Source: a virus
DNA: 23,532 bases
Virus record (IMG/VR): IMGVR_UViG_3300048778_000050
Coordinates: 1 to 23,532 of that record
Reading direction: 5' to 3' (one strand)
Position 1 is the first letter of the stretch. Each line of letters opens with the position of its first letter. This document shows positions 3 through 23,532 of this stretch, in pieces. The notes under the pieces are model-generated. The model was not told where the DNA came from and ran no database searches. It saw only the letters and a list, made by a program, of their open reading frames with translations. A program made the position numbers and the translations under genes.

Positions 3-473
3 GGGACGGCCTCGGCTTACGAGTGGAACATTCCAGCCAATCAGGTTCGTTTCTCTCAATCCACGTTGAAAAGTTTGGCGTTGAATAAAAAGCTGACGGC
101 GGGAACGAGTGAGACGGACATTATCACGGCCCCGACCGCCGCGCTTGCTTGCGGGACGGTTAAATCCTCATACGGGTTTAGTTTCTCGTATGCGGTGCTG
201 GTCGGAAAAATTTCATACGTGAACGACACAACCAGCAACTACTCAAATTATTTCGGGTTGGGTGTTTCGGGTTACGCCGACTTGGGAAATTTTATGACGA
301 CCGATTACAGCATAAAGGACACATTTAAAGGCGGATTCAACGCGATCCTTCCCGAAATGTGCGGCGTCACTCCGGGTGTGTCCGAGGTTTGGGCCTACAA
401 GCAAAAACCTACTTTTCTCGTAACGGCAAACGTTCCGTTGGGATCGACTCACAAAGTTTGCAAGGTTCATTGA
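3..473 (+). CDS. 3' end of an unrecognised plus-strand protein (partial)
   Basis: The frame is open from the window edge to a TGA at 471-473, so this is the C-terminal 156 residues of a longer protein. An internal TTG at 66 is not needed as a start. I recognise no family. The sequence is rich in Gly, Ser, Thr, Tyr and Val, has no clear transmembrane segment or catalytic motif, and reads like a beta-rich structural or surface protein (for example TFLVTANVPLGSTHKVCKVH at the very end). Four Cys residues are present, two near the C-terminus. It is the only gene here on the plus strand and converges on the virion cluster. A strong terminator follows 14 nt after the stop. The opening 60 bases are about 53% GC by hand count, higher than the cluster it faces. 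It could be a virion accessory or host-attachment protein of the same phage, or flanking sequence if this is a prophage; I cannot decide. Confidence 0.6.
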   Translation, partial: GTASAYEWNIPANQVRFSQSTLKSLALNKKLTAGTSETDIITAPTAALACGTVKSSYGFSFSYAVLVGKISYVNDTTSNYSNYFGLGVSGYADLGNFMTTDYSIKDTFKGGFNAILPEMCGVTPGVSEVWAYKQKPTFLVTANVPLGSTHKVCKVH

Positions 474-521: not shown

Positions 522-1451
522 TTAAGCATATAATCCAGTAGACGTTACCAGCCATCCCTTATATAGAGAAGTTCCAGCTGGAGTGTTAATAAATCTAATC
601 ATGGCCCATCCATTTTCTGGGATAACAACATCAGATGGAATGTTAAATCTATTAATCGCCAATGATTCGGTGTTTTTAGATTTCAAAGTTATGGTTCCCC
701 CTATCACATTAAACAATAGCAAATCTGTATCTATTGTTCTGCTTTCGGAGTTTATCCCAGTGATGTTTACGACTTCTGAAGTAACTATTCCCAGTTCGGT
801 AACATTTCCATCCGCGAAATCTTTCCCAGCAGTATCAACCGGGCTATAATTATTTATAGTCCCGTTAATTACCGGAGCAACCATTGTGTAAACATAAGGA
901 ACATATGCCGGTCCAGCCGGTCCTTGAGGTCCAACTGCGCCTTCTGGAGGTTGAACGCCAAGGTTTCCATCTTCATCGAACACGATCGTTTTATTTGCTC
1001 GAATATAGGCCGTTGGAAGATCAAGCGTTGTAGCCCCAGCAGGTTCACTATCAGGAGCTTTGACGCTCTTGGATATTTGTTCCTTATTCTGCAAGTCTTC
1101 CAACGCAAGTTTGTCAAACTCATTTTCGTGCAACACAGCGTAGTATTCCGCGTTGTTTCGTATTGAAGTGATTTGAGTACCATCCAGGTTGGATATGATC
1201 GAAAGTTTATACCCGGAGCTAAGTATATCCGTGAGCGTTATCGTTCCGCCTTCGGTATAATCCGTTGGTGCTTTGATTCCAACAACCGTGTAATCGTCGT
1301 TTATTACCAAGTCTGCGCTTGACCCGGTTGAAACCTTGGTAACTATCAGCCTCAGGTTCGAGATGTTGAACACGCAAAACGAAAATGTGAATGGTCCAGC
1401 TATGCCTGTCCCGGCATAATCAGTGCGTATGGAAGTCGATGCGATTGTCAT
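522..1451 (-). CDS. Tail fibre with T7-type N-terminal attachment domain
   Basis: This is a 309-aa fibre protein. Residues 1 to about 150 match the T7 gp17 N-terminal domain, which anchors the fibre to the tail tube. Visible signs are an early GTGIAGPFTFSF segment, a DYTV strand, GGTITLTDIL, a basic/hydrophobic strand, and an HENEFDKLALEDLQ helix. A short collagen-like Gly-X-Y run (GPQGPAGPA) follows at about residue 170, then a Thr/Ile/Asn-rich beta region of about 130 residues that would carry receptor binding. It is far shorter than T7 gp17 (553 aa). GAGG lies 8 nt before the ATG, and the gene starts 1 nt after the giant ejection protein gene ends. It is the last gene of the cluster, as the fibre is in T7-like late operons. 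The family of the C-terminal domain is not recognised, so host specificity cannot be read from it. Confidence 0.88.
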   Translation of the reverse strand: MTIASTSIRTDYAGTGIAGPFTFSFCVFNISNLRLIVTKVSTGSSADLVINDDYTVVGIKAPTDYTEGGTITLTDILSSGYKLSIISNLDGTQITSIRNNAEYYAVLHENEFDKLALEDLQNKEQISKSVKAPDSEPAGATTLDLPTAYIRANKTIVFDEDGNLGVQPPEGAVGPQGPAGPAYVPYVYTMVAPVINGTINNYSPVDTAGKDFADGNVTELGIVTSEVVNITGINSESRTIDTDLLLFNVIGGTITLKSKNTESLAINRFNIPSDVVIPENGWAMIRFINTPAGTSLYKGWLVTSTGLYA

Positions 1452-1452
1452 T

Positions 1453-4400
1453 TTAGTACCTCGTTTTTCTGGTTAACAAATCTTTGATGGATGCGTTACC
1501 ATTTTCGGCAATATCGTCGTATAAGTTTTCGGCCCATGTATCAATTAGTTTCGGAACATGAGATACTTCAGAATAGAATTTAATCATTTCTTCGGCATCT
1601 TTCTTTTTAAATTCATTATTATTGAAAATCATTTTTTCGGTATTGGATAAACCGTAAATCGCATCTTCTCCAATTTGTTCTAATGGAAGCAAATGCAACG
1701 CAGGTTTAAATGCGTCGCTTTTTTTTGTTACGGCTCTATACGCGAAAGAAGCTAAGTTTTTTCCTCCAGGAGCCAATTCCAAAGCAGAAGTACCAATCTT
1801 TTCCCAAAGTCTCTTTTTCTGTTCTTCGTCATTTTTGTTTCCATTTGTTGAAGAAATATTTCTTAACAATTCTGAAGAACCAAATCCTATCAAACTCATC
1901 ATTAATGGGAATCTAACAATCATTCTTGCCACAACAGCGGAGGCGGCCAGGAATCCTTTGCTATCATAAGCTGGTCCAACTTGTTTTCCCATTTTATAGG
2001 CCCTGTTATACATCGTTGCAAACACTTGATATGCCGGACTAAAGCTCTTGGTTAATTCCCCTCCTCTCATAACTCCGGTATGTTGAAGTTTAGAGGCGCT
2101 TCCCAAAAGGTTATCTACCGTTTCGGAAGCCATGTATTTTGCGGTTTCTTCGTTTTTGCCCTCTTTAATTGCATCAGAATAAACTCTGTACCACTCAACG
2201 TGAGAAACAATTTTATCTGCGCTCCGTTCAGTTATGAACGTTGTATGTTCAATGAATGAAAGCAATTTATTCTTTCCAGAAAGCGCTTCGTGTAACGCCT
2301 TTGAATCGTAGCTAAACATTTCAGAACGATATTTCATTGAAGGTTCTAGTTCTTGAACCTTTTTAACCAAGTCGTCAAGTTTTCCGCTCCAAGGGTTGAT
2401 GCCGTAACCAAACAATATATTAGATGCGTGAGAAACACCTTTTTCCCAGAATATATTATTCACGTCCGATCCATATTTAACCAAAAACATTGGGGCTCTG
2501 TATCCAATATTATAAAATATGCTGGTGACTCTTCCGTATCTGAACAGTTTATCGAGCATTCCTTTTGCATCATCACTACCGCAAGCCAAATAATTAACTT
2601 GTGTTTGAAATACGCTTGCGCCTCTAACAGTAAAAGCATCTTCTAAGGCCGTTTTAACGTTCTTGTCTTTAAGTATTTTGTTGGCGTCTCTGATACCTTC
2701 TTGCCAAGCCAAATAATGGCATGTATCTTTAATATATTGCTCATGAACTTCGGGGTTTAAATTTAACGCTTTTCCCGTACCTTTTTCTATCTGATTTTTC
2801 AAAAAACCATTATTAACATCAAAAGGTTTAAACGAGTTCATTTGATCGGGTCTTGAAACTTCAACGGGCTTAACATCAGTTCCAAAGTCTTTATCATAAG
2901 ACTTATGGTAATACCATCCTTCGTACATTTTACCTTTAAAAGTAACAGGAACTTTTTCAACCGGCTTTGGAGCAACACCATGAGCCCTTAATTCTTGTGC
3001 AACGAACTTTGGCCAAAACTTCTCGTCTTCTTTTGAAATATCTGAAATATAATCCATATCCTTTTCTGTAAGTTTATCTTTCATTCTTTCAATGGTTGCT
3101 TCATCAAACCCGTTTCCTTTAATTATGTCCGCTTTGCCAGCAACATTTCCAATGTACCTCATTACTCCGTACAGTTGACCAATCGTAAAATCTCTCATTT
3201 TCCCATTACCAACATCAACCGAAACCGTTTCATTCATCCGTTTACCAATGCCATCTTTCCCAAAATGCTTTTCTGCAATGTCTAATTCAGATTTAACGCG
3301 TTCATGCGTTAATTCTCGCTCTTTGTTATCGCAATCCCTTAACGGCCTTGTAAAAAACTTGTGCGCGGGTCCGTCCGGGCCTCCGTCGATGATCTCGGCA
3401 AGAGTTTCAATTTGGCCCATTTCAAGCAACGTTTTATCTCCGACCGAAGTCCACCAATGTTTTAGTTCCTTGGCTCTATCCGAATGAGAATCTCCAACAT
3501 TGGCCTTAATTGCATCGGTTATAGACTTATTTATTTCTTTTAAATTTGTTTTTGTTTTGTCATTGAGCAAAACGTTTTCGTGCCTTCCGTCCGTATAAAT
3601 GGCACTTACCGCATTAACTACTGTAGATAATTCATCAAGAGTTAAACTGTTTTTATCAATGGGTTTCGATTCTAACAAATCCACCGGGACATAATCGCTT
3701 AATCCTGCGTGTTCCAAACCTTCGGATTTCAACCTACTCAAAAACGATGAAACCGTTTCTGGCTTCCAAGAACCTTGCGCTCCGGTCATTCCAGTAGCGT
3801 CTGAAATTTCTTTTTGACTTTTACCTTCCATGTTGTCTGCCATTGATTCCCAAGTGCCACCGGGTTGAGGTTTGACCTTATCCGCTAATCCAAACTTTTC
3901 CAGCAAACCATGAGCAATTTTTGCGTGTCCAACCGGAACCGTTAATAATGGTCTGTTATCAATGGACGTTCTATCAGCCAAGTCTTTGGCCTTGGATTCA
4001 AACTTCCCGATTATTTCTGCGTTGCGAATGGCTTGTTTTGCCATCTCGTGATTGATTAACTCCTTCTCCTTCCAAATGGCCGCATTCTTATAATCTTTTT
4101 TATTGGCATATTCCGAGGCTTTAATTGCTGAATTTTTGGACGCCGTTATATATGTCGAATAACTCTTGGCTTCGGTCAAACCTTTTCCAGAAAGATTTAT
4201 TCTGGCCTGTTCTTTTGCCTTCTCTTTTAATGCACCTCTTGAAGCGCGTTCTTCTGCTTGCGTTTGTTTTTTTACTTCCGAAACTTCTGCAAGTGTTTTT
4301 TGAATGTCTTCGTTAGACATTCTCTTGTATAAATTTAATTCTGCACTCAACGCTTCTGATCTAGCATCTCCATAAAGCGTTGATATTTTTCCCGCAGTGT

Positions 4401-7400
4401 CCGAATTATAGGCCAACGGCTTACCAACTCCCAATTCCGTTTTAATCTTTTCACTTATTTCGTATTTTTTATCTGCGTTAACCATAACCTTTGCCACTTC
4501 GGAAGCGTCTTCGTATCCGTATTTAATGGCAAGGGAAGTCAACAAATCTTGTTTTGAACGATCTCCATCAATGAACTTTTGAGCCTCTTCTTTGTAGTTT
4601 TTGAATCCAAAATCATCAATCATCTTGTATTTAGGGTCTGCATCTACTTCTTTTGTGGCCTTATCTTCAGCCAAGGCATAGGCATGGGATTCTTCAACAT
4701 TGTCGTAAGGAATCAAGTTCCTTATTTTTTGCTCAATCACTTCTTCAACAGACCTGTAATTAATATCTTTCTCCGCCTTGGCTCTTGCAACGTCTTCATC
4801 TTCTCCATGCTCCATATAAGATTTCATTTTAGTTTTTAGATTAATGTCAATGGCGTCTTGTGTAGCCTTTGCGTATCTTGCAGTCCAAAGAGACATTTCA
4901 TTAGGATCAACTCCCTCCGGGGATTCAGAATTATATCCCATGTCTTTTTCTGCTTTTTTAATTTCATCTTTAGACGCCAAAATCCTATCGTAAACTCCGC
5001 GCATCCTAGGAGTCATTTCAACTCCAAGATACCTTTGCATGATGTTTGCCGTTGGATAAACTTCTCTTACCCAGTTCATAAAACGATCAAACATTCGTTT
5101 CATGCCTGGAACAGGAACATCACCTTCCCAAAGCCTATATTCAAAACCACGAGCAAACTTTTCGTGCATCTCCCTTGCTTCTTTGGTGTACTTTCCGCCT
5201 TCTTTTGAGAAAACATCATCCCAAGACTTTGCTCCAACCCACTTAAAGAACGATTCAGAATCTTCTTTTAAGTCTTTGGGCGCGCCTTCCAATTCAGACA
5301 AATGTTTCATCATGAACAAAAACGCATGTCCGATTTCATGGAACATTGTGGACTTGTCGGAGTTTTCGTTAAGTAACACTTTAAACGTCATTTTCTTGGT
5401 CAACGGATCATAGGCCGGTTGCATTGCTCCGCGATTCTTTTGATTAAACATCGCGTTTTCTTCTTCGGATATTGGCTTTCTATTTAAAATAAAATCTCTG
5501 GCGTCTTGCGTTTCTGGTATTTGACCAGAACGCAAAATTCCAAATTTTTCATTAGCCTCGTCTCTGTTTACGAATTTGCCATCTCCCAGCAAGAACCCCG
5601 CGTCCTTATCAGTTACGTTTTTATATCCAGCAAATCTTGCTTGTTCAAATGCCGCAAAATGACCTTCGGTTCCGGTGGTAGCAGTAAATATTCTTCCTGT
5701 CTCTGGGTCTTTAACTGCGGCTTTCATGCCTTCAAGTTGCCTCTGTCGATCTTTTATATCTTTTTCACTGACATTATTTTTTTTAAAAAAGTTATCGTAA
5801 TCAGATTGGAAAAACTTTTCTGGAGCAGAAACTCCAAAAATTTCTTTTTGCTTGTCTTCCGAAATAACCGGAGCGTGTTCTTTTGATTCTTCAAATCCAA
5901 ACATATCCCGAAGTTCTTTAACGGACTTTCCGGTTCTCTCAGAAAACGTTTTGTAACCAGCGGCAACGGTTTCCCCAAAAGATTTATTTTTAAACTCGTT
6001 TTTTATCTTTTGAAGTTCGGATTCGTTTTCATTCTTCTTTTGAACATCTGCCTTTAATTGAGCTACTGTTTTATCTTGCGGATTTATTTTAATGCTATCT
6101 GACAGCTTATCTACATCGCTCTTCCTTTCGGAAGTCAAAAACTTTTCCATTGGAATCACAACCTCGGTCGATCCCGGCTCTTGATAAGACTTTAATGCCT
6201 CTTCCCCAAATTGTTTTGCAACATTTTCGGGGCCTTCTTCTTGGTAAAGACGTTCAAATTCTTCCACCGGGATACGAACGTTTTCTGCTCCGTGTTGATC
6301 GGTGAATGCTTTTATGGCTTTTTGAGCCATTTCAGTATTCATTTCTGGGATGGATTTAGAAAGTTCGATTAACTTTCGTTTTGTATCCTCGGCATATTTA
6401 ACATTGTTTTTAAGAACATCAGATTCAGACTTGTTACCAATAGCGCCTAAAAAGTGTGGCACTCCCATTACAGCGCCTATTGTTAATCCTCCGATGGTTG
6501 ATTCTGCCAACTTGTTACCGAAATTTTCGAACGCTTTGGGGTTCTCTCCGCTTATTTTATCAACAGCAGAATCACCAAAAAGCTGAGCATCGTTTTGTGC
6601 GGACATTCCTAACGTACTTTTAGCGAAATTAGTGAACGCTATTCTGTATGTTGTTTTAGCTCCTTCATTTCCAAGAAATGAAGCCACAGCGGGAAATGTT
6701 TTTGAAAAAACATTTAAAACCGGAAGCATTGTCGCCGCCGTAATCCCTCCTTTGGCGGTTGCAGAAGCCAAAGCCATTTCGTCAGAAAGACCGTTCTTTT
6801 TGGATTCTTCATAACTTTCGGATAAAGTCCCAGCCCCCAAGTACGCCGCCGTTCCAAAACCTCCAGTTGCAACAGTAGACAAAATCAAAGACGCTATATT
6901 TGGAATTTCAGTAGTTAATTTTGCCGCAAGAGCATTGTAGTCGTGGTCTTTATAAGCTTTTTGCCAAGACGCATCATCGGCAACAGGAGTTGAAATAGTT
7001 TTTATGTATTCATCAAGTTTTGTTCTTGCAGATTCAAAAACACTTGGGTCTGAATAATCGTCATGTGCAATGGATTTTAAAACCTGATTAGGAGCGTCCA
7101 ATGCGTTTAATGCAAAAGAACCCATCTTCAACGTTCCCTTGTATAAATCTTTTATCTTTCCTTCGGCGTCCGAAAGACCTTGCAAAGAATTGTGGCAAGC
7201 CGCCATGTTCTTGGGGTCTTCAAGAAATCTTGCCAATCCTGGACTTCTATCTTGCAAATTGTCCCAATATTCTTTATCTGGACCGCTCATTACAGACTTA
7301 GCTTCTTTTAAATTGTTTAAAACCTTGTCTGGATCAATTCCAGTTTTTTTAGAAATTTCCAAAGCGTCCGCATTGTCATTGGCATTGGAATCTGAAACTT

Positions 7401-7644
7401 TGCTGTAAAGCGACTGAAGATACGACTTTTTGTCTTCCGATGTTGCAATGCCCATCTGCATTTCGCCTTCAACCGTAGACTTGTCTCGATAGTTTGGAAC
7501 AGGTTTTTCTGGATATGTATTCCCCTCCGTAGGAGCCACCCTTGCCCAAGGCTCTTCCGTTGGTTGAACCATAGGTTGATTTTGGTCAACAGCTTTTAAA
7601 TCAGAGCTAGGAGCCACTCTTGTCCACGGCTCATTATCTGGCAT
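1453..7644 (-). CDS. Giant internal/ejection virion protein with HEIGH metallopeptidase-like domain
   Basis: This 2063-aa protein is encoded where T7 gp16 would be, between the smaller core proteins and the fibre. The N-terminus carries a duplicated PWxRVAP motif (E5-P12 and E31-P38). Hydrophobic, glycine-rich stretches lie near residues 247-275 and 1899-1925 and may insert into the host envelope. A zinc-peptidase-like motif HEIGH lies at 769-773; downstream HEKFARGFE (827-835) offers E828 or E835 as a third metal ligand. This arrangement is typical of the peptidase segment in large polyvalent phage proteins such as those of Bcep22-like phages. Long charged helical stretches fill much of the rest. 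I see no lysozyme or SLT transglycosylase motif. AAAGG precedes the ATG by about 9 nt, and the gene starts 1 nt after its upstream neighbour. The inferred role is ejection with the DNA, forming a channel or cleaving envelope proteins. The coding sequence is AT-rich compared with the window edges. Confidence 0.85.
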   Translation of the reverse strand: MPDNEPWTRVAPSSDLKAVDQNQPMVQPTEEPWARVAPTEGNTYPEKPVPNYRDKSTVEGEMQMGIATSEDKKSYLQSLYSKVSDSNANDNADALEISKKTGIDPDKVLNNLKEAKSVMSGPDKEYWDNLQDRSPGLARFLEDPKNMAACHNSLQGLSDAEGKIKDLYKGTLKMGSFALNALDAPNQVLKSIAHDDYSDPSVFESARTKLDEYIKTISTPVADDASWQKAYKDHDYNALAAKLTTEIPNIASLILSTVATGGFGTAAYLGAGTLSESYEESKKNGLSDEMALASATAKGGITAATMLPVLNVFSKTFPAVASFLGNEGAKTTYRIAFTNFAKSTLGMSAQNDAQLFGDSAVDKISGENPKAFENFGNKLAESTIGGLTIGAVMGVPHFLGAIGNKSESDVLKNNVKYAEDTKRKLIELSKSIPEMNTEMAQKAIKAFTDQHGAENVRIPVEEFERLYQEEGPENVAKQFGEEALKSYQEPGSTEVVIPMEKFLTSERKSDVDKLSDSIKINPQDKTVAQLKADVQKKNENESELQKIKNEFKNKSFGETVAAGYKTFSERTGKSVKELRDMFGFEESKEHAPVISEDKQKEIFGVSAPEKFFQSDYDNFFKKNNVSEKDIKDRQRQLEGMKAAVKDPETGRIFTATTGTEGHFAAFEQARFAGYKNVTDKDAGFLLGDGKFVNRDEANEKFGILRSGQIPETQDARDFILNRKPISEEENAMFNQKNRGAMQPAYDPLTKKMTFKVLLNENSDKSTMFHEIGHAFLFMMKHLSELEGAPKDLKEDSESFFKWVGAKSWDDVFSKEGGKYTKEAREMHEKFARGFEYRLWEGDVPVPGMKRMFDRFMNWVREVYPTANIMQRYLGVEMTPRMRGVYDRILASKDEIKKAEKDMGYNSESPEGVDPNEMSLWTARYAKATQDAIDINLKTKMKSYMEHGEDEDVARAKAEKDINYRSVEEVIEQKIRNLIPYDNVEESHAYALAEDKATKEVDADPKYKMIDDFGFKNYKEEAQKFIDGDRSKQDLLTSLAIKYGYEDASEVAKVMVNADKKYEISEKIKTELGVGKPLAYNSDTAGKISTLYGDARSEALSAELNLYKRMSNEDIQKTLAEVSEVKKQTQAEERASRGALKEKAKEQARINLSGKGLTEAKSYSTYITASKNSAIKASEYANKKDYKNAAIWKEKELINHEMAKQAIRNAEIIGKFESKAKDLADRTSIDNRPLLTVPVGHAKIAHGLLEKFGLADKVKPQPGGTWESMADNMEGKSQKEISDATGMTGAQGSWKPETVSSFLSRLKSEGLEHAGLSDYVPVDLLESKPIDKNSLTLDELSTVVNAVSAIYTDGRHENVLLNDKTKTNLKEINKSITDAIKANVGDSHSDRAKELKHWWTSVGDKTLLEMGQIETLAEIIDGGPDGPAHKFFTRPLRDCDNKERELTHERVKSELDIAEKHFGKDGIGKRMNETVSVDVGNGKMRDFTIGQLYGVMRYIGNVAGKADIIKGNGFDEATIERMKDKLTEKDMDYISDISKEDEKFWPKFVAQELRAHGVAPKPVEKVPVTFKGKMYEGWYYHKSYDKDFGTDVKPVEVSRPDQMNSFKPFDVNNGFLKNQIEKGTGKALNLNPEVHEQYIKDTCHYLAWQEGIRDANKILKDKNVKTALEDAFTVRGASVFQTQVNYLACGSDDAKGMLDKLFRYGRVTSIFYNIGYRAPMFLVKYGSDVNNIFWEKGVSHASNILFGYGINPWSGKLDDLVKKVQELEPSMKYRSEMFSYDSKALHEALSGKNKLLSFIEHTTFITERSADKIVSHVEWYRVYSDAIKEGKNEETAKYMASETVDNLLGSASKLQHTGVMRGGELTKSFSPAYQVFATMYNRAYKMGKQVGPAYDSKGFLAASAVVARMIVRFPLMMSLIGFGSSELLRNISSTNGNKNDEEQKKRLWEKIGTSALELAPGGKNLASFAYRAVTKKSDAFKPALHLLPLEQIGEDAIYGLSNTEKMIFNNNEFKKKDAEEMIKFYSEVSHVPKLIDTWAENLYDDIAENGNASIKDLLTRKTRY
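7531..7632 (-). repeat. Duplicated PWxRVAP-encoding DNA repeat
   Basis: Two near-identical 24-bp units (7531-7554 and 7609-7632, 78 bp apart) encode EPWARVAP and EPWTRVAP at the N-terminus of the giant ejection protein. They differ at three bases, two of them silent. The duplicated short motif in an otherwise low-complexity tail suggests a docking peptide; that role is an inference. Confidence 0.75.
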
Positions 7645-7645
7645 T

Positions 7646-9679
7646 TTATTCGACCTTTGTTTTGTTTACCTTCAGGCGTTTGCTTCCTGGAGTTGTGATT
7701 GATTTAGAGTATTCTTGCTGATCGTTTCCAACAGTATACCCGCCTTCAATGGCTTTTTCTATGTGTTCGACAGTTATTGGAACAATATTCCCGTTTTCAT
7801 CCGGAGGTATTGATTTCAAATAATCAATGGCCTTTTTTACGGTTTCAACGCCTTCTGGTTTTGATAGATACGCGTCAAGCGCATTGTTTACAGAATCAAT
7901 ATCTTTGTACCCACCGGAATGTTTCATGTCTTTAACTATATCTTGGGCAGACGGGCCTATTTTTGTTTTAAGATTTTCAACATATTTTGCCGTTCTGACC
8001 TGTTCTTCTGGAGTGGTTAAGTTTCTATACAACGGTTGTTGCGTAGGAACGTTAAAAGTATTCCAAGCGCCGGACAAATTCTTGAAAAATTCAGCGTTTA
8101 CTTTTTTTTCAGAACCAGGAGTTTCCAGCAAATTTTCATTAGCCCACTTTCTTATTTCGTCAGGTTTTAAATCTTTACCTTTTAAATAACTATCAAAAGC
8201 ATCTCTGTTTTTGTAATATTGTTCTGAGCTTTCCCCAAATTTATTTTTCAGCATTTCGTCCACGTTATCAACCGCAAGCACCTTTCCTTTATCTAATCCG
8301 GTTCCGCTTCCTTTGCTTAACACTGAGTCTACATGTTCCAAACAATCCGAATAATCTTGAACGCTTATTTTACCCAAATCTTTATCTTTTTTTAACTGAT
8401 CCATTTTTTGGTAAACGCTATCGTCTCCGGGTTTTATACCGATTTTAAAATTAACTTTGTATTCTGGGTTTGTACGAATGTCTGGAGGAGCATAAGCCCC
8501 GGCCGCAATTTTTGTCAAATCGTTTCTACTTACTGGATCGCCCTCTTTTGAATATTTCGCCCACTGTTTAACGGTTGAATCATAACTATATCGAGGGTCT
8601 TTAGTTTGATCGTATTTTTCTTTCTGAGTAATTACAAAATTCTCCCAAGCCCTAAATTCATCTGCTTTTTCTCCAATTATTTTTCCCTCTTGAATCTTCG
8701 CAAACCTCCACATGTCATTATAAACGGCTTGGGCGTGATTTTCATCTCCTTTAAACCGTTCATGGTTTCTTACGTAGTCCCAAAGTTGTTGAGGCTTAAC
8801 GTTTCCTTGTTTATCAAAAAACTTTTTACTCTCGTCGTCGTAAATTCCTTTAATGCCTTCGTTCTTGTCTCCATAAAACTCTTGGTATGCCTCAGAAAAG
8901 TTAACGTCTGGCTTGTAATGCTCGGATAACTTTTGGTATTGATCTTCGGATATTAACTTTGCGTCTTTGTCTTTTTTAAGATCATCGGGTATCTGATATC
9001 CCAGGTTATGATCTTTTTTCTGATCAGAAATATTAACCCTAACCATTGCATGGTCTTCTTCGTTTTCTTTTTGAATTGCTTCTGGAGTCCAATGGTTAAC
9101 CTTGGCCGCCTTTTCATTCATGTCGTGAAGATCGTTTAACGTCTGATTAACAATTGACGGATTATCATAATTATTTGAAATCGTGTGCATCATCTGAGCT
9201 TTTCGCGTCACAATTGCCTTGGCGTCTATAATTGGTATTTGAGACGCAACATGAGCGCCTATTTCAGAAGAAAGACGGTCTTTGTATTTGGCAGTTAAGT
9301 TGTCAAACGCTTGCTGTTGTCTTTGGTCTGTGATTCCAGACCTTAAAGATTTCGCGCTTTCATCAAATGCTTTTGCGGCAGGAGACACAGCTTCAAATGC
9401 GTTTGTACCTTTGTAGTCTTCAGCTTTCCCAACTAAGTTGTCTTTGAGTAGCCCCATCTTTGTTTCATAATTATTCTGAATCGCAAAATCCGCGTGTTCT
9501 TGAGCTTGCTTCATGTAATCTTCGGCAGACTTCTTTACTTCTTCTGCACCTTGAGCGTACCTCTGATTAACGTCTTCGTTGCTCGGAATATCAATATGTT
9601 CCCGAACATCGGGAGTTATTTCAGGTCTAACTTCGGGGGCCTTGAACGGACTTTCTACCGTTGGAACTCGTGTACTCAT
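7646..9679 (-). CDS. Internal virion (ejection) protein, T7 gp15-like position
   Basis: This 677-aa hydrophilic protein is rich in Lys, Asp, Glu, Gln and Asn, predicted largely alpha-helical, with no signal peptide and no membrane segment. Its start ATG overlaps the stop of the upstream 213-aa gene in an ATGA, and it ends 1 nt before the giant 2063-aa gene. The order small (gp14-like), medium (gp15-like), giant (gp16-like), then fibre is that of the T7 internal core and ejection proteins. The assignment rests mainly on this order, on size (T7 gp15 is 747 aa) and on helical, heptad-like composition; I see no diagnostic motif. The expected role is to form part of the internal core and be ejected to build a DNA conduit across the host envelope. 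Confidence 0.72.
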   Translation of the reverse strand: MSTRVPTVESPFKAPEVRPEITPDVREHIDIPSNEDVNQRYAQGAEEVKKSAEDYMKQAQEHADFAIQNNYETKMGLLKDNLVGKAEDYKGTNAFEAVSPAAKAFDESAKSLRSGITDQRQQQAFDNLTAKYKDRLSSEIGAHVASQIPIIDAKAIVTRKAQMMHTISNNYDNPSIVNQTLNDLHDMNEKAAKVNHWTPEAIQKENEEDHAMVRVNISDQKKDHNLGYQIPDDLKKDKDAKLISEDQYQKLSEHYKPDVNFSEAYQEFYGDKNEGIKGIYDDESKKFFDKQGNVKPQQLWDYVRNHERFKGDENHAQAVYNDMWRFAKIQEGKIIGEKADEFRAWENFVITQKEKYDQTKDPRYSYDSTVKQWAKYSKEGDPVSRNDLTKIAAGAYAPPDIRTNPEYKVNFKIGIKPGDDSVYQKMDQLKKDKDLGKISVQDYSDCLEHVDSVLSKGSGTGLDKGKVLAVDNVDEMLKNKFGESSEQYYKNRDAFDSYLKGKDLKPDEIRKWANENLLETPGSEKKVNAEFFKNLSGAWNTFNVPTQQPLYRNLTTPEEQVRTAKYVENLKTKIGPSAQDIVKDMKHSGGYKDIDSVNNALDAYLSKPEGVETVKKAIDYLKSIPPDENGNIVPITVEHIEKAIEGGYTVGNDQQEYSKSITTPGSKRLKVNKTKVE

Positions 9680-17938: not shown

Positions 17939-18307
17939 TTATGTTTTACCTCTTTTAAAATGTTCGTCAAGCTGTTTTTGTTCTACGCCTCGTTCTGTGT
18001 TCTCAATATCTTGGCGTTGTTTTGCCTCAAAAATCATTGAAATCCAAGGATTAGCTCCAAACCAGAAGGATATCTTGTTCTTTATGTTCTGAGCGCACCC
18101 TTGTCTTGCCACCTTAGCGGACATTTCTTGCCCGTTTTTATCGAAACAATCCTGGTACAAACCAAATTCTTCCATCAATTCGTACAACACTTGACGACCT
18201 TGGGGAGTAGACAAAACACTTTCCCATGCTTCTTTTAGGCGTCTGTTGCGCTTTCCAAGCAAGCGCTCTTCCATTGAGATTCTTGCTTTGTTGCCGTCTT
18301 CGTTCAT
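17939..18307 (-). CDS. Bbp19-like protein between portal and scaffold
   Basis: This is a 122-aa protein. The central block LSTPQGRQVLYELMEEFGLY, then CFDKN, then ARQGCAQNIKNKISF and a last helix SMIFEAKQRQ follows the pattern L.T..GR.vl..LL...g.f...f.......ar..G...v...l...i......l..m..e of Bbp19-type proteins, encoded next to the portal in BPP-1-like and related phages. Function is unknown, probably head assembly. The charged N- and C-terminal extensions are helical. The start overlaps the portal stop in an ATGA with GAGG upstream, so it is translationally coupled to the portal. The family call is from remembered pattern and position. Confidence 0.68.
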   Translation of the reverse strand: MNEDGNKARISMEERLLGKRNRRLKEAWESVLSTPQGRQVLYELMEEFGLYQDCFDKNGQEMSAKVARQGCAQNIKNKISFWFGANPWISMIFEAKQRQDIENTERGVEQKQLDEHFKRGKT

Positions 18308-20043
18308 TGCGGAGCCTCACTAGCCGCGGCTTGCGCTTGAGCCATATCTTTTTGGCCTTTTCCAATTTGAGGCATGGCCTGAGCTTGCATGGCGGCAGAA
18401 CGTTGTTTTGCTTTTTGATCTCGTTCTTGTTTAACTTGAGCGGGGTCTTTAAATACCTTCAAGTTAACACCGCTTGCAATGAAATAACGTTTTGCCATTT
18501 CATCACGATCAATGGTATCCAGAACACTTTCAGTTGCTCCGGCGGCTTGCTCTACATTTACCACGCTTTGAATAAACGCCACGCCTTTTTCATAAGGCGT
18601 CGTTTCAGTCAACTTCAAAGCCATCGCCACTCGAGACACAAGATTCCATTTAAGATTTTTCCCTTGTAACTTTTTTGGAGGTGGTGGTATTTCACCTTGG
18701 CGCCATAATATTCCGAAAATATAAGAGAACATGGGTTTGAGCCAGTCATGTTCAAAGTTTCCGTACACGGGCGCAAGAATGTTGTAGTTTTCTTGAATCC
18801 GTTGCAACCAGTATGTAGCCGTTTCAGGCTGAGTCTTCATGGCCGTTTCGTTAGCAATCATTCGGAAAATATCAGCGTAAGTTGTTTTATCAATTCGTTG
18901 TTTAAGTTCCATGATCTTGTCTTTAATCGCGGCAAGATCGGGCTTAATTTGATACTGAGGTCTTACTCCATTTTGAGCATCAGAAGCAGAAGGAGCAGTA
19001 ACCAAGAACCCAGGAGTCGTTCCCATTGGGTATTGACCCGTTGTTGGAGGCGCAACCATCGGAGGTTCAATCATTTTTTCGCAAGCGTTGTTCCACATGC
19101 CGTTGGTCTTGAAAATCTCCTTAACGTCACCAATGGCTTTTCGCCCAGGTCCGTCAACTCCATAAGCGTCTGTTGGTTGGCGAAACCACCTAAATACGAA
19201 CACTGGGAATTCATCGAATCCGCGACATTGCAGAATGCGTTTTTCCCCTGAATTTCGAAGGTAATAGGTAGCTTTGTAACGTTTAAATTCAGAACGATAT
19301 TTGGCTTTATTTTCGTTGTAGTCAAGGTTTGGTTCAACAACCCACACCACATCAAACGGAATTTCTCGTTGCTTGGGATCGTCCCATGCGTGTTTTAACG
19401 CGCTTCCCAAGTTTGAAGTGTCCGGCGATCCGTCCGAATTTTTCTCGCAAAATTTGCCTATGATCTGCCTAACCTTCATCCTCGTTTCAAAGATAAACGT
19501 ATCCACTTGACCAAGATCGTTATTTGAGCAATAAAACGATCCAATCGGAAAAACCGTAAACTTGCAGTGGTGCTTGAAATCTTCTTCGATCATCATTGCC
19601 GAAGTAAGAAACCTTGAACCCATGCGGTAAAATGTTGGGACTTCTTGGTAAAAGTTGGAGTTCTGAAACACGAATTTAAACTTCTGATTTACGATGTGGC
19701 ACCAATTTATGGTGTCGATATCATCCATAAGGTCTTCATCTTCGGGTTCAGTAACATGCCATTCCGAATTTTCGGGAGTAATTCCAGTACACAATCCGGC
19801 CATAAGATCATCAAACGCCTGAAACGGGTATGAAGTAATTTTAATATCGTCAAAATCTGGATATCCAGCAGTTGCTGGACTCCAAATAACCAAGTGAGGA
19901 TCAAGCAAATGCTGTATTTCTTCCCAAGTGTCTTGATAAGGCGAACGTTGGGTAAGCAAATACGAACGAAGTACTTCCAAACGCGAGTATTCGCTATATT
20001 GCTTCTGTTCGTCTGGCTGAGTAATAATCTCTTTATTTTCCAC
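18304..20043 (-). CDS. Portal / head-tail connector protein (T7 gp8 type)
   Basis: This 579-aa protein forms the dodecameric portal at the head vertex. Diagnostic stretches are the N-terminal helix RSPYQDTWEEIQHLLDPHLV, then FDDLMAGLCTGITPENSEWH (the A..LaaGl..gLt.P...WF-like block of the head-to-tail connecting family), the FYQEVPTFYRMGSRFLTSAM helix, a PIGSFYCSNND strand, and a long C-terminal part with a PPMVAPP loop and an EQAAGATESVLDTID helix. The tail is Gln/Ala/Lys-rich. T7 gp8 is 536 aa. Translation starts at GTG (20043) with GAAGGGA upstream, inside the last codons of the preceding 96-aa gene. The coding region ends in an ATGA overlap with the Bbp19-like gene. I see no terminase next to it. 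Confidence 0.92.
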   Translation of the reverse strand: MENKEIITQPDEQKQYSEYSRLEVLRSYLLTQRSPYQDTWEEIQHLLDPHLVIWSPATAGYPDFDDIKITSYPFQAFDDLMAGLCTGITPENSEWHVTEPEDEDLMDDIDTINWCHIVNQKFKFVFQNSNFYQEVPTFYRMGSRFLTSAMMIEEDFKHHCKFTVFPIGSFYCSNNDLGQVDTFIFETRMKVRQIIGKFCEKNSDGSPDTSNLGSALKHAWDDPKQREIPFDVVWVVEPNLDYNENKAKYRSEFKRYKATYYLRNSGEKRILQCRGFDEFPVFVFRWFRQPTDAYGVDGPGRKAIGDVKEIFKTNGMWNNACEKMIEPPMVAPPTTGQYPMGTTPGFLVTAPSASDAQNGVRPQYQIKPDLAAIKDKIMELKQRIDKTTYADIFRMIANETAMKTQPETATYWLQRIQENYNILAPVYGNFEHDWLKPMFSYIFGILWRQGEIPPPPKKLQGKNLKWNLVSRVAMALKLTETTPYEKGVAFIQSVVNVEQAAGATESVLDTIDRDEMAKRYFIASGVNLKVFKDPAQVKQERDQKAKQRSAAMQAQAMPQIGKGQKDMAQAQAAASEAPQ

Positions 20044-20443: not shown

Positions 20444-20551
20444 GCTACGCCCAGTGACGCCGTTAAGCGAGTCGATTTCGGCTTTGCCGTTCCTCCATCG
20501 AGTCGAACACTTATTTCGTATTACCTGAAATCCACATCCAAACAAACGCAA
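20378..20551 (-). pseudogene. Possible remnant of a small helix-turn-helix gene
   Basis: A frame is open from a TGA inside the holin-like gene to a TGA at 20378. The part beyond the holin-like gene includes SLNGVTGRSPRQILKRLNCG followed by MDAVRIPSRP. This resembles the (l)a...Gi..rtI..RL..GM...eAl..P helix-turn-helix element found in small phage proteins and near HNH endonucleases. There is no good start: only TTG codons within the upstream gene, and the GGAGG at about 20493 has no start codon in this frame. A 12-codon frame (MEERQSRNRLA) starts nearby in another phase. Three consecutive partial frames look like a frameshifted gene or programmed shifting; chance cannot be excluded. Confidence 0.25.
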
Positions 20552-20768
20552 TCAAAGCCGCAAAACCGGAACCAACCAATCCCCATGCCCCAGACTTAAC
20601 CCTCAATTGCGCTTCGGCAATTTGAAGTTTGTTAAGACGGTTATAAATCTCTGCGTCCGTTTCGGATTGTCTACTTTCAATGCGTTGAAGTGTAGCGTCA
20701 ATTCGTTCAAGCGTCTTATTCAAATACAAACGCTGTTCTTTCCAGTCGCAATCTTCGCACGTTGGCAT
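20511..20768 (-). CDS. Holin-like membrane protein
   Basis: This 85-aa protein has a charged, heptad-like helical N-terminal two-thirds (about residues 10-55) and a single C-terminal membrane segment (about 60-81, GLVGSGFAALIAFVWMWISG) ending in a short polar tail. This topology matches XhlA-like or class III-type small phage holins and related lysis-accessory proteins. The N-terminus carries C4-x-x-C7, which is unusual and may bind metal or form a disulfide. It starts 1 nt after the upstream gene ends; the SD is weak (TGGA), so expression may rely on coupling. No endolysin is next to it, so the lysis role is an inference from topology only. Confidence 0.6.
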   Translation of the reverse strand: MPTCEDCDWKEQRLYLNKTLERIDATLQRIESRQSETDAEIYNRLNKLQIAEAQLRVKSGAWGLVGSGFAALIAFVWMWISGNTK

Positions 20769-20769
20769 T

Positions 20770-21729
20770 TTAGTATTCCATCCACTCTACGTCGTAATCT
20801 ATGTATGTATTACCGCCTTCTCCGGTTAACACCCATCCCGAAGGAATTGAAATGCAGAAATTTTGTGAAGCTCCTCGAACAATAAAAGGTGCCCTACCGT
20901 TGTTATCGTCCCAAACGATTGGTGCTACGGACCAATTACGCAATGAAGCCAAACCGGACGTTGTGGGAGTAGTCACGGGGAAAATAGTACTCCAAGCAAC
21001 ATCGTAAACTGGTTGAGCCTTGCAAAATGCGTATTCACTAGCTCCAAGATTTGTTCCTGGAGTAGAAGGGGACGTATAATTGAATGTAATTGCGGCATTT
21101 GAAGCGGGAGCGTTAATATCCAATTTGCTAATAGAAGGGTTCACAAAATGCGTCGAAGGCCCACTATCTGGATTCCTAATAGAAAATTGTATTGGTTGAG
21201 AAGTATTCATCGTAGTGTTGGCTACGTTATCGTATTGAAATGCCAGCCTAATCCTTGCAATAGCAATAGTCCTATAAGCGCTTCCTGTAATTGTTAGGAA
21301 GTGTTGAGATGAAGAAACCGTTCCGCCAGGAAGCGTAGCTTCACCACCCGTAGTATAAACCCAAGCGTTTTGTGGAACTGGAATAGCGTCCGAAAGAGGT
21401 CCAACTGTCCAAGTGTATGTAGGGGTAGAAGTGTATGTGTTTGTCGGAGTATCAGTAGGACTAGTACCAGGCCAACCAACAGAAGACGGAGTTTTGGTCG
21501 CTGTAAACGTACTTGTGTTTGTAAATGTAGAAGTCGGAGTAAATGTAGGAGTAGGTGTAAATTTTGGAAAAATGTTATTATAAGTTTGATTGATAACTAC
21601 CATAGGAGTAAGTGCGTATACTGGAGTTCCGTTAATGGTACCAATTCCAAACAGACGTTGTTTAACATTTTGTTCCAACTGGGCATGAGCAGTTCCAGCA
21701 ATCAGCAACAGCAATAAAAATTTCTTCAT
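20770..21729 (-). CDS. Secreted protein with Thr/Pro stalk and jelly-roll-like end (2)
   Basis: I start it at the ATG at 21729 (319 aa). GAGG lies 6 nt upstream, and starting at the TTG at 21741 would spoil the signal peptide. Residues 1-16 are a Sec signal peptide (KKF, then a leucine-rich core) with a clear AHA|Q cleavage site. About 35 residues follow, then a Thr/Pro/Ser stalk (about 53-110) with repeats such as FTPTPTFTPTSTFT. The C-terminal 200 residues are beta-rich; the last part (APFIVRGASQNFCISIPSGW, then a Y-x-x-x-VEWMEY end) resembles the tail end of jelly-roll phage virion proteins. It overlaps the stop of its paralogue-like neighbour, with its SD in the overlap. It would be exported across the inner membrane. 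The combination with a virion-like domain is odd. No enzyme motif is visible. Confidence 0.78.
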   Translation of the reverse strand: MKKFLLLLLIAGTAHAQLEQNVKQRLFGIGTINGTPVYALTPMVVINQTYNNIFPKFTPTPTFTPTSTFTNTSTFTATKTPSSVGWPGTSPTDTPTNTYTSTPTYTWTVGPLSDAIPVPQNAWVYTTGGEATLPGGTVSSSQHFLTITGSAYRTIAIARIRLAFQYDNVANTTMNTSQPIQFSIRNPDSGPSTHFVNPSISKLDINAPASNAAITFNYTSPSTPGTNLGASEYAFCKAQPVYDVAWSTIFPVTTPTTSGLASLRNWSVAPIVWDDNNGRAPFIVRGASQNFCISIPSGWVLTGEGGNTYIDYDVEWMEY

Positions 21730-21737
21730 GTCTAACC

Positions 21738-22751
21738 TCAAGGTTTAATTTGTAACCAACCAGTTACAGGCGTAAGCGAAACTCCAATGTAAACAGTCGT
21801 GCCAGCACTATTAACGTAAACATCTCCAACACGACGAGGAGCAGGAGTCGGTTGCGCTGACCCGGTTTGGGCGGTTGTGGCATTAGTAATTGAATTTGAT
21901 ACATACAACGCGTTTGCGGCGCCATCATTTGTCGATGGAGTAGGAACATTCGTCACCGGAGCATTGTTACAATCGGTTGATTTTCCATTAAGTAAAACTG
22001 AACCATAAGTTGAATTTAACTTTATTCCGCCACCAACAACAACGCTGTCTCCATTCCCTCCAGTAACTGTTACTGCCGAATAATGCGCAATATTAGAACT
22101 AATTAAATTTCCCAAAACATAAACATTTCCGTTGTAAGGCGTGTAATAAACTAACTCGATTTCATTTCCAAACGAATCAATTTCGTTGGTTTGGATTCTT
22201 CCAGAAGACGGAATTCTCAGAGTCAACTGACCATTTAACCATCCCCATTCAACCCCCGGAGTCGTTACGGGCGTTATCGCCTGTGTCGGAGTAAACGTCG
22301 GTGTACTCCAAGTGCCCGTTGGAGTGGGCGTTGCAGTCGGTGTCGCAGTAACCGTAAACGTCGGAGTCGCAGTCCCGGCATAATACAATAACCGAGGCAA
22401 CGTTCTAATCGTGTGACCGATAATCAATCCTTGCTTCTGACTCTGAACCGTCCATGTCCCTTGTGCGTTCGCAGTTGCTATAGTTCCTCGCCGAACCGTT
22501 ACTGAATTATTATTACCGGAACTAACCCAAACCGGCTCAATGTATTTATCCAAACCTTTGTTGTAAGGAACATTTCCTGAAATGATAGAAGCCCCATAAG
22601 CTCCACTAGGAACGGGAGTGGTTGTAGGAACAAAAATAATAGTCTGAGCCGAGTCAACTCCATAAATCAAAGAAGTGGAGTTGCTAGGGACTGGGTATGT
22701 CTGAGCATTAGCCGAACACGCTAAGATAAAAAACAGTAACATTTTTTTCAT
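21738..22751 (-). CDS. Secreted protein with Thr/Pro stalk (1)
   Basis: This 337-aa protein starts at the ATG at 22751 with GGGGA upstream. Residues 1-16 form a Sec signal peptide (KKM, hydrophobic core) with an ANA|Q site; C12 lies in a poor lipobox (ILAC), so signal peptidase I is more likely. Residues 17 to about 122 are a beta-rich domain (with SGNNNSVTVRRGTIATANAQ). A Thr/Pro stalk follows (about 123-168; TPTFTVTATPTATPTPTG). The C-terminal domain is beta-rich; its end (GDVYVNSAGTTVYIGVS, then TGWLQIK) resembles the short strand pair closing many phage fibre or knob proteins. It shares the layout signal peptide, domain, stalk, domain and the cleavage at 16/17 with the next gene. It is probably the first gene of the transcription unit started by the promoter at 22773-22800. 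Exported adhesin, receptor mimic or exclusion factor are guesses. Confidence 0.78.
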   Translation of the reverse strand: MKKMLLFFILACSANAQTYPVPSNSTSLIYGVDSAQTIIFVPTTTPVPSGAYGASIISGNVPYNKGLDKYIEPVWVSSGNNNSVTVRRGTIATANAQGTWTVQSQKQGLIIGHTIRTLPRLLYYAGTATPTFTVTATPTATPTPTGTWSTPTFTPTQAITPVTTPGVEWGWLNGQLTLRIPSSGRIQTNEIDSFGNEIELVYYTPYNGNVYVLGNLISSNIAHYSAVTVTGGNGDSVVVGGGIKLNSTYGSVLLNGKSTDCNNAPVTNVPTPSTNDGAANALYVSNSITNATTAQTGSAQPTPAPRRVGDVYVNSAGTTVYIGVSLTPVTGWLQIKP

Positions 22752-22836: not shown

Positions 22837-23532
22837 TTACTGCGTGTTGGCCCAATACTGCCCAGAAACATATATCTGGGTTACGGCGTTTGTTAACGTC
22901 AATGACCATGGTTGGTTGGCCGTTTTTTCGCATAGGGACGGAACGTCGTACGTGGTGTTAGCCGCAACGATGAACGGTCCATAAGCAACCGTCGCGGATG
23001 TCTTGATAGTCATGGTGCAAGCCGTCGCGGATTGGTTTTGGATGGTCATCGGCCAGATGTCGTTGTACGCCGAAGCCCCGGCGACGATAAATGTCAAGGG
23101 CGTTGTGATTGAAACGGACATGTTGAAATAATTCTCGATTGATCGAAGCCCCTGCATCTGATATTGAGTGCCTTGCGCCACGGTTACAGGTTGTGCAACT
23201 GTGACGCCGTGAGCAGGCACAGGGCCGATAATCGTCACACTTCCGGTGTCCTCTCGCGTTACTTTTCCGTTCAAAGAATTCATTAGGGTCGTGACCGCTT
23301 GAGTCAAAGTGTTGAGGGTATAAAGCAGGGTCGACACCGGAATATCGTTGACAGATACAGGGGCGGACCCATTCAGCAACGAAACAGATCCCGCAACGTT
23401 CGGTAGGGATGAAACAGACACCGATGTCGTAGGGTTAGTGATGCTTACCGGTATCTGCGGGGTGGGGGGCAACGTTGGCCAAGGGCATTGTGTGGGCCAA
23501 TTTTTGACGTTTACGTCCGCGGTCGGCACCGC
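22837..23532 (-). CDS. Virion- or fibre-like protein of unknown type (partial, start outside)
   Basis: The frame is open through the window edge; a GTG at 23529 is not required as the start. The visible 231 residues begin with a Pro/Thr-rich stretch, then a run rich in VSV, PVSV and IPVS motifs (SLPNVAGSVSLLNGSAPVSV), which resembles the repetitive beta region of phage and prophage tail or head-decoration proteins. A short helical segment (LNTLTQAVTTLMNSLNG) follows, then a beta-rich C-terminal domain ending in VTQIYVSGQYWAN, like the last strand of a virion jelly-roll. It has no catalytic motif. By hand count its first visible 60 bases are about 58% GC, higher than the cluster core. It lies upstream of the promoter and probably ends the preceding transcription unit. 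Confidence 0.7.
   Translation of the reverse strand, partial: AVPTADVNVKNWPTQCPWPTLPPTPQIPVSITNPTTSVSVSSLPNVAGSVSLLNGSAPVSVNDIPVSTLLYTLNTLTQAVTTLMNSLNGKVTREDTGSVTIIGPVPAHGVTVAQPVTVAQGTQYQMQGLRSIENYFNMSVSITTPLTFIVAGASAYNDIWPMTIQNQSATACTMTIKTSATVAYGPFIVAANTTYDVPSLCEKTANQPWSLTLTNAVTQIYVSGQYWANTQ

Follow-up and report, generated by a model that had tools for sequence, protein, structure and literature searches.

Predicted exported, stalked proteins encoded between the terminase and portal genes in a clade of uncultured epsilon15-like podoviruses

Several phage-encoded proteins are known to end up outside the cytoplasm of the infected cell. Lom of phage lambda is an exported surface protein of the Ail/Lom membrane-barrel type that is encoded among the late virion genes. 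The receptor-blocking exclusion lipoproteins of phages, Llp of T5 and the Cor type, are small exported proteins thought to act on receptors. Released structural enzymes and adhesins of phages act on neighbouring cells (PMC9917116), and PblA and PblB of Streptococcus mitis phage SM1 coat streptococci after the action of holin and lysin (PMC2920869). Here we describe a row of stalk-protein genes in an uncultured phage, and compare its predicted products, their relatives and their possible role with these systems.

The analyzed stretch of viral DNA (the window, 23,532 nucleotides of IMG/VR record IMGVR_UViG_3300048778_000050) corresponds by position to bases 20440-43971 of a longer contig, G001 (IMG/VR contig 3300046673_000032, 43,971 bp), and the two are identical across the gene compared. 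Judged from its gene content, the window comes from an uncultured podovirus of the epsilon15 type. It encodes a portal protein of the PF12236 family (18304..20043, minus strand, E 7.8e-81), which lies 3' of the stalk-gene cassette, and a GP7-type major capsid protein (PF20911, E 2e-66 in Pfam), and the phage has the gene order large terminase (TerL), portal, capsid, tail tube, ejection proteins and fibre. The nearest isolated phages are epsilon15-like, with a portal identity of only ~28%. A search for the portal in bacterial and archaeal genomes returned a single match, of 25% identity, in a Lysobacter MAG. The ordinary tail fibre (522..1451, minus strand, 309 aa) has no signal peptide, matches a PHROG tail family (tail fibre N-terminus, E 1.9e-19), and is 97% identical to its counterpart in the related genome G002, although the stalk genes of the two phages differ.

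Other genes of this clade showed features of their own. A 257-aa protein (window 3-473, plus strand; whole gene G001:20139-20912) begins with membrane segments, after which come an internal signal-like site, ASAYEW, and a beta-rich-looking domain; its N-terminal part is replaced in G002 and in the related locus L006, and its gene adjoins that of a GH25 endolysin and that of a putative protein resembling cysteine proteases. Six tandem paralogues of ~170-200 aa are encoded at G001:7218-10964 (L108), of the form MNAKDLKKLESLNPCADG...WADAWLDGSDR..., with a variable, Ala/Ser-rich middle part. At G002:42608-43248 (L115), an ORF with degenerate GNARVYGNAWV repeats, probably a beta-helix, reaches the contig end and continues beyond it.

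The stalk genes occupy the interval between the large terminase and the portal. In G001 the order is large terminase, 319 aa, ~352 aa, 337 aa, 319 aa, an 85-aa membrane protein, 96 aa and portal; the first of these stalk genes directly follows the terminase. Protein 1 (337 aa; 21738..22751, minus strand) is an ORF preceded by the Shine-Dalgarno sequence AAAGGGG. It consists of a signal peptide, MKKMLLFFILACSANA, cleaved before Q (22704-22751), an N-domain common to proteins of L006, L005 and L017 (22383-22703), a Thr/Pro stalk (22251-22382) and a C-terminal region (21741-22250), all on the minus strand. Protein 2 (20770..21729, minus strand) has the signal peptide MKKFLLLLLIAGTAHA, likewise cleaved before Q (21682-21729), an N-region (21580-21681), a stalk (21391-21579) and a C-terminal region with two cysteines (20773-21390). 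Its ORF had been reported as 20770-21741. The ORF itself is real; the start is most likely ATG 21729 and not TTG 21741, giving a predicted length of 319 rather than 323 aa, since a GAGG lies a few bases upstream of this ATG and overlaps the stop of the gene for protein 1. The two genes are coupled by overlap, and both are preceded by ribosome-binding sites. Only the 3' part of the gene for protein 3 (22837..23532, minus strand; ~352 aa when whole) lies in the window, whose end cuts the ORF; its signal peptide, MKKLLVLILLMVSSAHGQ, and first stalk were read from L015 (5' part from L015:10970), the end of which overlaps the window end at 23532.

All four genes share one layout: a Sec-type signal peptide, an N-terminal region, a Thr/Pro stalk and a C-terminal domain. 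The earlier note had described a tandem pair of such genes. Both are real, on the minus strand and in the virion gene cluster, but the row holds four genes and not two. The common layout of proteins 1 and 2 held for signal peptide, stalk and C-terminal region; their N-regions are not homologous, being ~107 aa of a 'PSNSVSL' type in protein 1 and ~34 aa of a 'VKQR..GIGT' type in protein 2. Directly after the stalk genes lies the gene for the 85-aa protein (20511..20768, minus strand), an ORF with a C-terminal membrane segment. This protein is possibly holin- or XhlA-like, the match to phrog_1103 being weak (E 0.0017), and it travels with protein 2 between the window and L006 (93% identity).

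Signal peptides were identified by a lax rule, used in place of SignalP, that asks for a basic n-region, an 8-residue hydrophobic core and a small-x-small cleavage site. Each of the clade's 12 complete stalked proteins passed the rule, as did one stalkless relative. The canonical n/h/c structure is present, the cleavage site is A-x-A in most members, and a ribosome-binding site is clear for most of the genes. For comparison, viral contigs were scanned for TPTxTPTxTPT, which gave 76 stalked ORFs complete at the 5' end among the matches listed; seven of these 76 unrelated ORFs passed the rule. Thus, a Thr/Pro stalk alone does not predict a signal peptide among the matches listed. The difference from the clade (12/12 against 7/76 among the matches listed) gives a Fisher p of 2e-10, which is overstated as the 12 proteins are related. 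The signal peptides of protein 2 in the window and in L006 differ at 15 of 48 bases and keep their form; random substitution sets of equal size keep the rule in 13% of cases for this pair, and in 8% for protein 1 in the window and G002. The Sec signal peptides that had been noted on both proteins are therefore found above chance. A bacterial lipoprotein lipobox, [LVI][ASTVI][GAS]C, is absent from proteins 1 and 2: the signal of protein 1 contains ILAC, in which position -2 is Leu, and a normal ANA|Q site comes after it; that of protein 2 has no Cys. One further viral stalk protein with a lipoprotein-like signal (L189) was set aside as unrelated to the clade proteins. Every clade member begins with a signal-peptide-like sequence, which is not expected of a tail fibre or spike, and predicted Sec export of the clade stalk proteins is well supported.

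Relatives carry one to three stalk genes at the same terminase-portal site: three in L006 (578, 299 and 319 aa), two in G002 (525 and 327 aa) and one in G003 (283 aa). G003 has three further genes of this kind between its tail fibre and lysis genes, two for stalked proteins and one for an exported protein that lacks a stalk. Its stalk proteins stop shortly beyond the stalk and have no head domain there. Between the window and G002, TerL, portal, capsid and tail fibre are 97-99% identical, whereas the C-domains of the stalk proteins are unrelated and only the signal peptide and N-region are in common. The opposite pattern is seen with L006: identity in the virion DNA is 76-79%, and protein 2 is near-identical beyond residue 20 but has a different signal peptide. 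Together, these two patterns indicate that exchange occurs around the boundary of signal and N-region, and the modular architecture and inferred swapping of the cassette are well supported. The cassette is not the sole variable region, because the two ejection proteins (677 and 2063 aa; window 1453-9679) also differ strongly between G001 and G002 (34% and 43% identity); the capsid and tail tube proteins of the same phages are mostly 96-99% identical. In the mature part of protein 2 (window 20773-21681 against L006:7113-8021) we counted 10 nonsynonymous and no synonymous differences, or seven changes without the junction, mostly G/A transitions; this is suggestive of selection and not significant (probability of seeing no synonymous difference under neutrality ~0.06 to 0.15).

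Outside the clade, contigs with a located terminase and portal had no convincing signal-peptide gene in intervals of up to 2.1 kb, the three weak matches to the rule being in likely spurious ORFs. The corresponding intervals of epsilon15 and Cobetia phage Carin1 contain small hypothetical genes only. As far as these intervals tell, the cassette insertion is specific to the window's clade. No relatives of the N-domain were detected in a genome collection of ~85,000 bacterial and archaeal species.

The C-terminal domains of proteins 1 and 2 had been likened to phage fibre or jelly-roll proteins. We could not confirm this: the only matches of the two proteins in Pfam, NCBIfam, PHROG or PDB fall on the low-complexity stalk. 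In 50,697 phage records, no match was found for full-length proteins 1 and 2 or for the C-domains of protein 3, L006 578 and G003 120, and the C-domain of protein 2 reached E 3 at best; no relatives of the C-domains of proteins 1 and 2 were found outside the clade. AlphaFold models had a mean pLDDT of 29 for protein 2 (3-row alignment) and 39 for the N-domain (8-row alignment). Among the clade stalk proteins, PHROG tail matches were likewise confined to the low-complexity stalk. A match to phrog_15511 (E 1e-6) was attributed to stalk composition and not to homology, since different proteins show it at their Thr/Pro stretch, and a tail-fibre repeat motif picked by eye, GVPTP..A.NKTYVD, was dropped for want of a significant database match (best E 5).

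Support for virion-type esterase and binding domains comes from the relatives only. The 525-aa protein of G002 ends in a putative GDSL/SGNH domain (PF13472, E 7e-6, under the curated Pfam cutoff) in which GDST, IND and GAH motifs can be read and the Asp of the DxxH block is replaced by Asn. Along 94% of its length, this domain is homologous to Arthrobacter phage tail esterases (E 8e-9), which have neither signal peptide nor stalk. The C-domain of the 327-aa protein of G002 is 35% identical over 116 aa to UOF78147 (183 aa) of podovirus ctDrO704, which also lacks signal peptide and stalk and whose gene comes after that of the large terminase and immediately before that of the portal; the database match alone is weak (E 0.03), and the homology is strengthened by the shared genomic position. 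In G003, an exported protein combines a signal peptide, a laminin-G-like domain (E 0.0012, below cutoff) and a stalk, and its gene lies near endolysin and signal-peptide transglycosylase genes. Also near the GH108 endolysin of G003, at L112:13126-13677 and L112:14208-15083, we observed a lytic transglycosylase with a signal peptide (SLT, E 1e-13) and a patatin-like phospholipase (E 5e-7). The simplest account of the relatives' proteins appears to be that virion-type binding and esterase domains have been put behind an export signal and a stalk.

We propose, as a tentative reading on which we stand just short of evenly divided, that the cassette encodes Sec-exported, stalked relatives of phage adhesion and esterase domains that bind or trim surface glycans outside the cytoplasm, so that superinfection is excluded and less progeny is lost on debris. 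The proteins would be made late, together with the virion genes, cross the inner membrane via Sec and lose the signal peptide, mostly at A-x-A|Q. They would then act outside the cytoplasm, in the infected cell's envelope and, once that cell has lysed, on debris and neighbouring cells, where surface glycans used for phage attachment may be bound or chemically trimmed. The likely benefits would be the exclusion of superinfecting phages and a smaller loss of progeny on debris. Several findings speak against this reading. If the host has an outer membrane, proteins with no more than a Sec signal would stay in the periplasm until the cell lyses, and the clade proteins showed no signal for secretion across the outer membrane, so that they may act either in the periplasm or outside the cell. 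The G003 stalk proteins are headless, the C-domains of proteins 1 and 2 had no relatives beyond the clade, and the ejection proteins vary as well. A more specific version, which we consider possible and rather doubtful, is that receptor-binding or receptor-modifying virion domains were turned into multi-copy exported free fibres, in which signal peptide and stalk would form the constant chassis and the C-terminal head would be exchanged like a cartridge. Such fibres would destroy or mask receptors in a role like that of the neuraminidase or haemagglutinin-esterase of animal viruses.

The same proteins could simply be ordinary virion components in which the hydrophobic N-terminus does not function as a signal and serves, for example, as a segment inserting into membrane or capsid. 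In favour of this are the position of the genes between terminase and portal and the related ctDrO704 domain, which is encoded next to the portal and has no signal. However, the n/h/c structure is canonical with A-x-A sites in most members, the signal peptide is retained through swaps, and such starts are nearly absent from other stalked viral proteins, which makes this reading very unlikely. Export, as the earlier note had argued, is the better reading than ordinary virion incorporation, because all members retain the signal peptide whereas the remainder of the protein is exchanged, and because the C-terminal domains of the relatives are homologous to signal-less proteins of phage tails and virion regions. 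Receptor blocking, virion capture and host decoration, the functions that the note had suggested, are each candidates. If exported, the proteins might still become virion parts: fibres could mature in the periplasm, for folding, disulfides or O-glycosylation of the stalk, and attach to virions at lysis as extra receptor-binding proteins. The variable C-domains behind conserved N-regions, with esterase and virion-type domains among them, resemble the evolution of receptor-binding proteins; the conserved ordinary tail fibre (97%) stands alongside the variable cassette, and the cysteines of protein 2 would suit disulfides. Yet at least two different N-regions would each need their own docking, the G003 members have no head to present, and assembly of fibres via the periplasm is, to our knowledge, not known from any tailed phage. 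We hold such a route to be distinctly unlikely.

Exported proteins might also coat the infected or lysogenic cell, in adhesion, biofilm formation or protection from grazers, to the benefit of the host as with the moron products Lom and PblA/PblB and with no action on phage receptors. The export signals agree with this, as do stalks that would hold a domain off the surface and the laminin-G-like domain, and there is precedent for phage proteins that coat cells (PMC9917116, PMC2920869). We nonetheless think such decoration unlikely: the genes share the late strand with the virion genes that surround them and show no hint of being expressed separately, promoter-like sites being no commoner than in shuffles; no integrase was identified in the ORF list of G001, which is not exhaustive; and an esterase fits receptor change better than adhesion. 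An accessory function in lysis, with the exported proteins acting on the envelope, is to us the least probable explanation. The gene for the 85-aa membrane protein does come right after the cassette, and some G003 members precede the GH108 endolysin and the exported transglycosylase, but no peptidoglycan-acting domain was found in any clade member (the domains found being esterase, lectin-like and virion-type) and the GH25 endolysin of G001 is located elsewhere.

The assumption for tailed phages is that their fibre-type domains serve on the virion only. If this lineage exports a swappable multi-gene set, the host envelope and the debris left after lysis would form a second arena for phage-receptor evolution. 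The exported set would then be a concrete candidate for sparing progeny from spent receptors or for excluding competitors, and the constant chassis with swappable heads offers a signature for finding similar systems in other viral genomes.

The statement that no phage system of this form has been described was too strong, as Lom and PblA/PblB are known as surface or cell-coating phage proteins. The clade proteins resemble Lom in being predicted exported surface proteins of a late virion gene region, and differ from it in being stalked and modular and in having no Pfam Ail/Lom match. From the T5 Llp and Cor-type proteins they are separated by the lack of a convincing lipobox, a length of ~280-580 aa and a late structural locus. 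PblA and PblB are likewise phage-encoded and serve as adhesins at the cell surface (PMC2920869, PMC9917116), a location and role that the clade proteins may share, but PblA and PblB reach the surface via permeabilisation by holin and lysin, whereas the clade proteins have their own Sec-type signal, a Thr/Pro stalk and domain swapping, and no Pfam match to a cell-wall-binding domain. Soluble tailspike depolymerases likewise bring virion-type enzyme domains to the surface of neighbouring cells (PMC9917116); they are virion proteins that are overproduced and released by lysis, whereas the clade domains are preceded by a signal peptide. The Arthrobacter phage tail esterases (Bridgette gp30 and relatives) share a homologous SGNH domain with the G002 protein, but are encoded among minor tail proteins and have no signal peptide or Thr/Pro stalk. 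UOF78147 of ctDrO704 shares both the C-domain and the position between large terminase and portal, and differs by the same two absences. In the open-access literature searched, which omits most subscription papers, we found no description of a set in which proteins with a Sec signal, Thr/Pro stalk and swappable virion-type head occur in multiple tandem copies, and none of the known systems compared here combines these four features.
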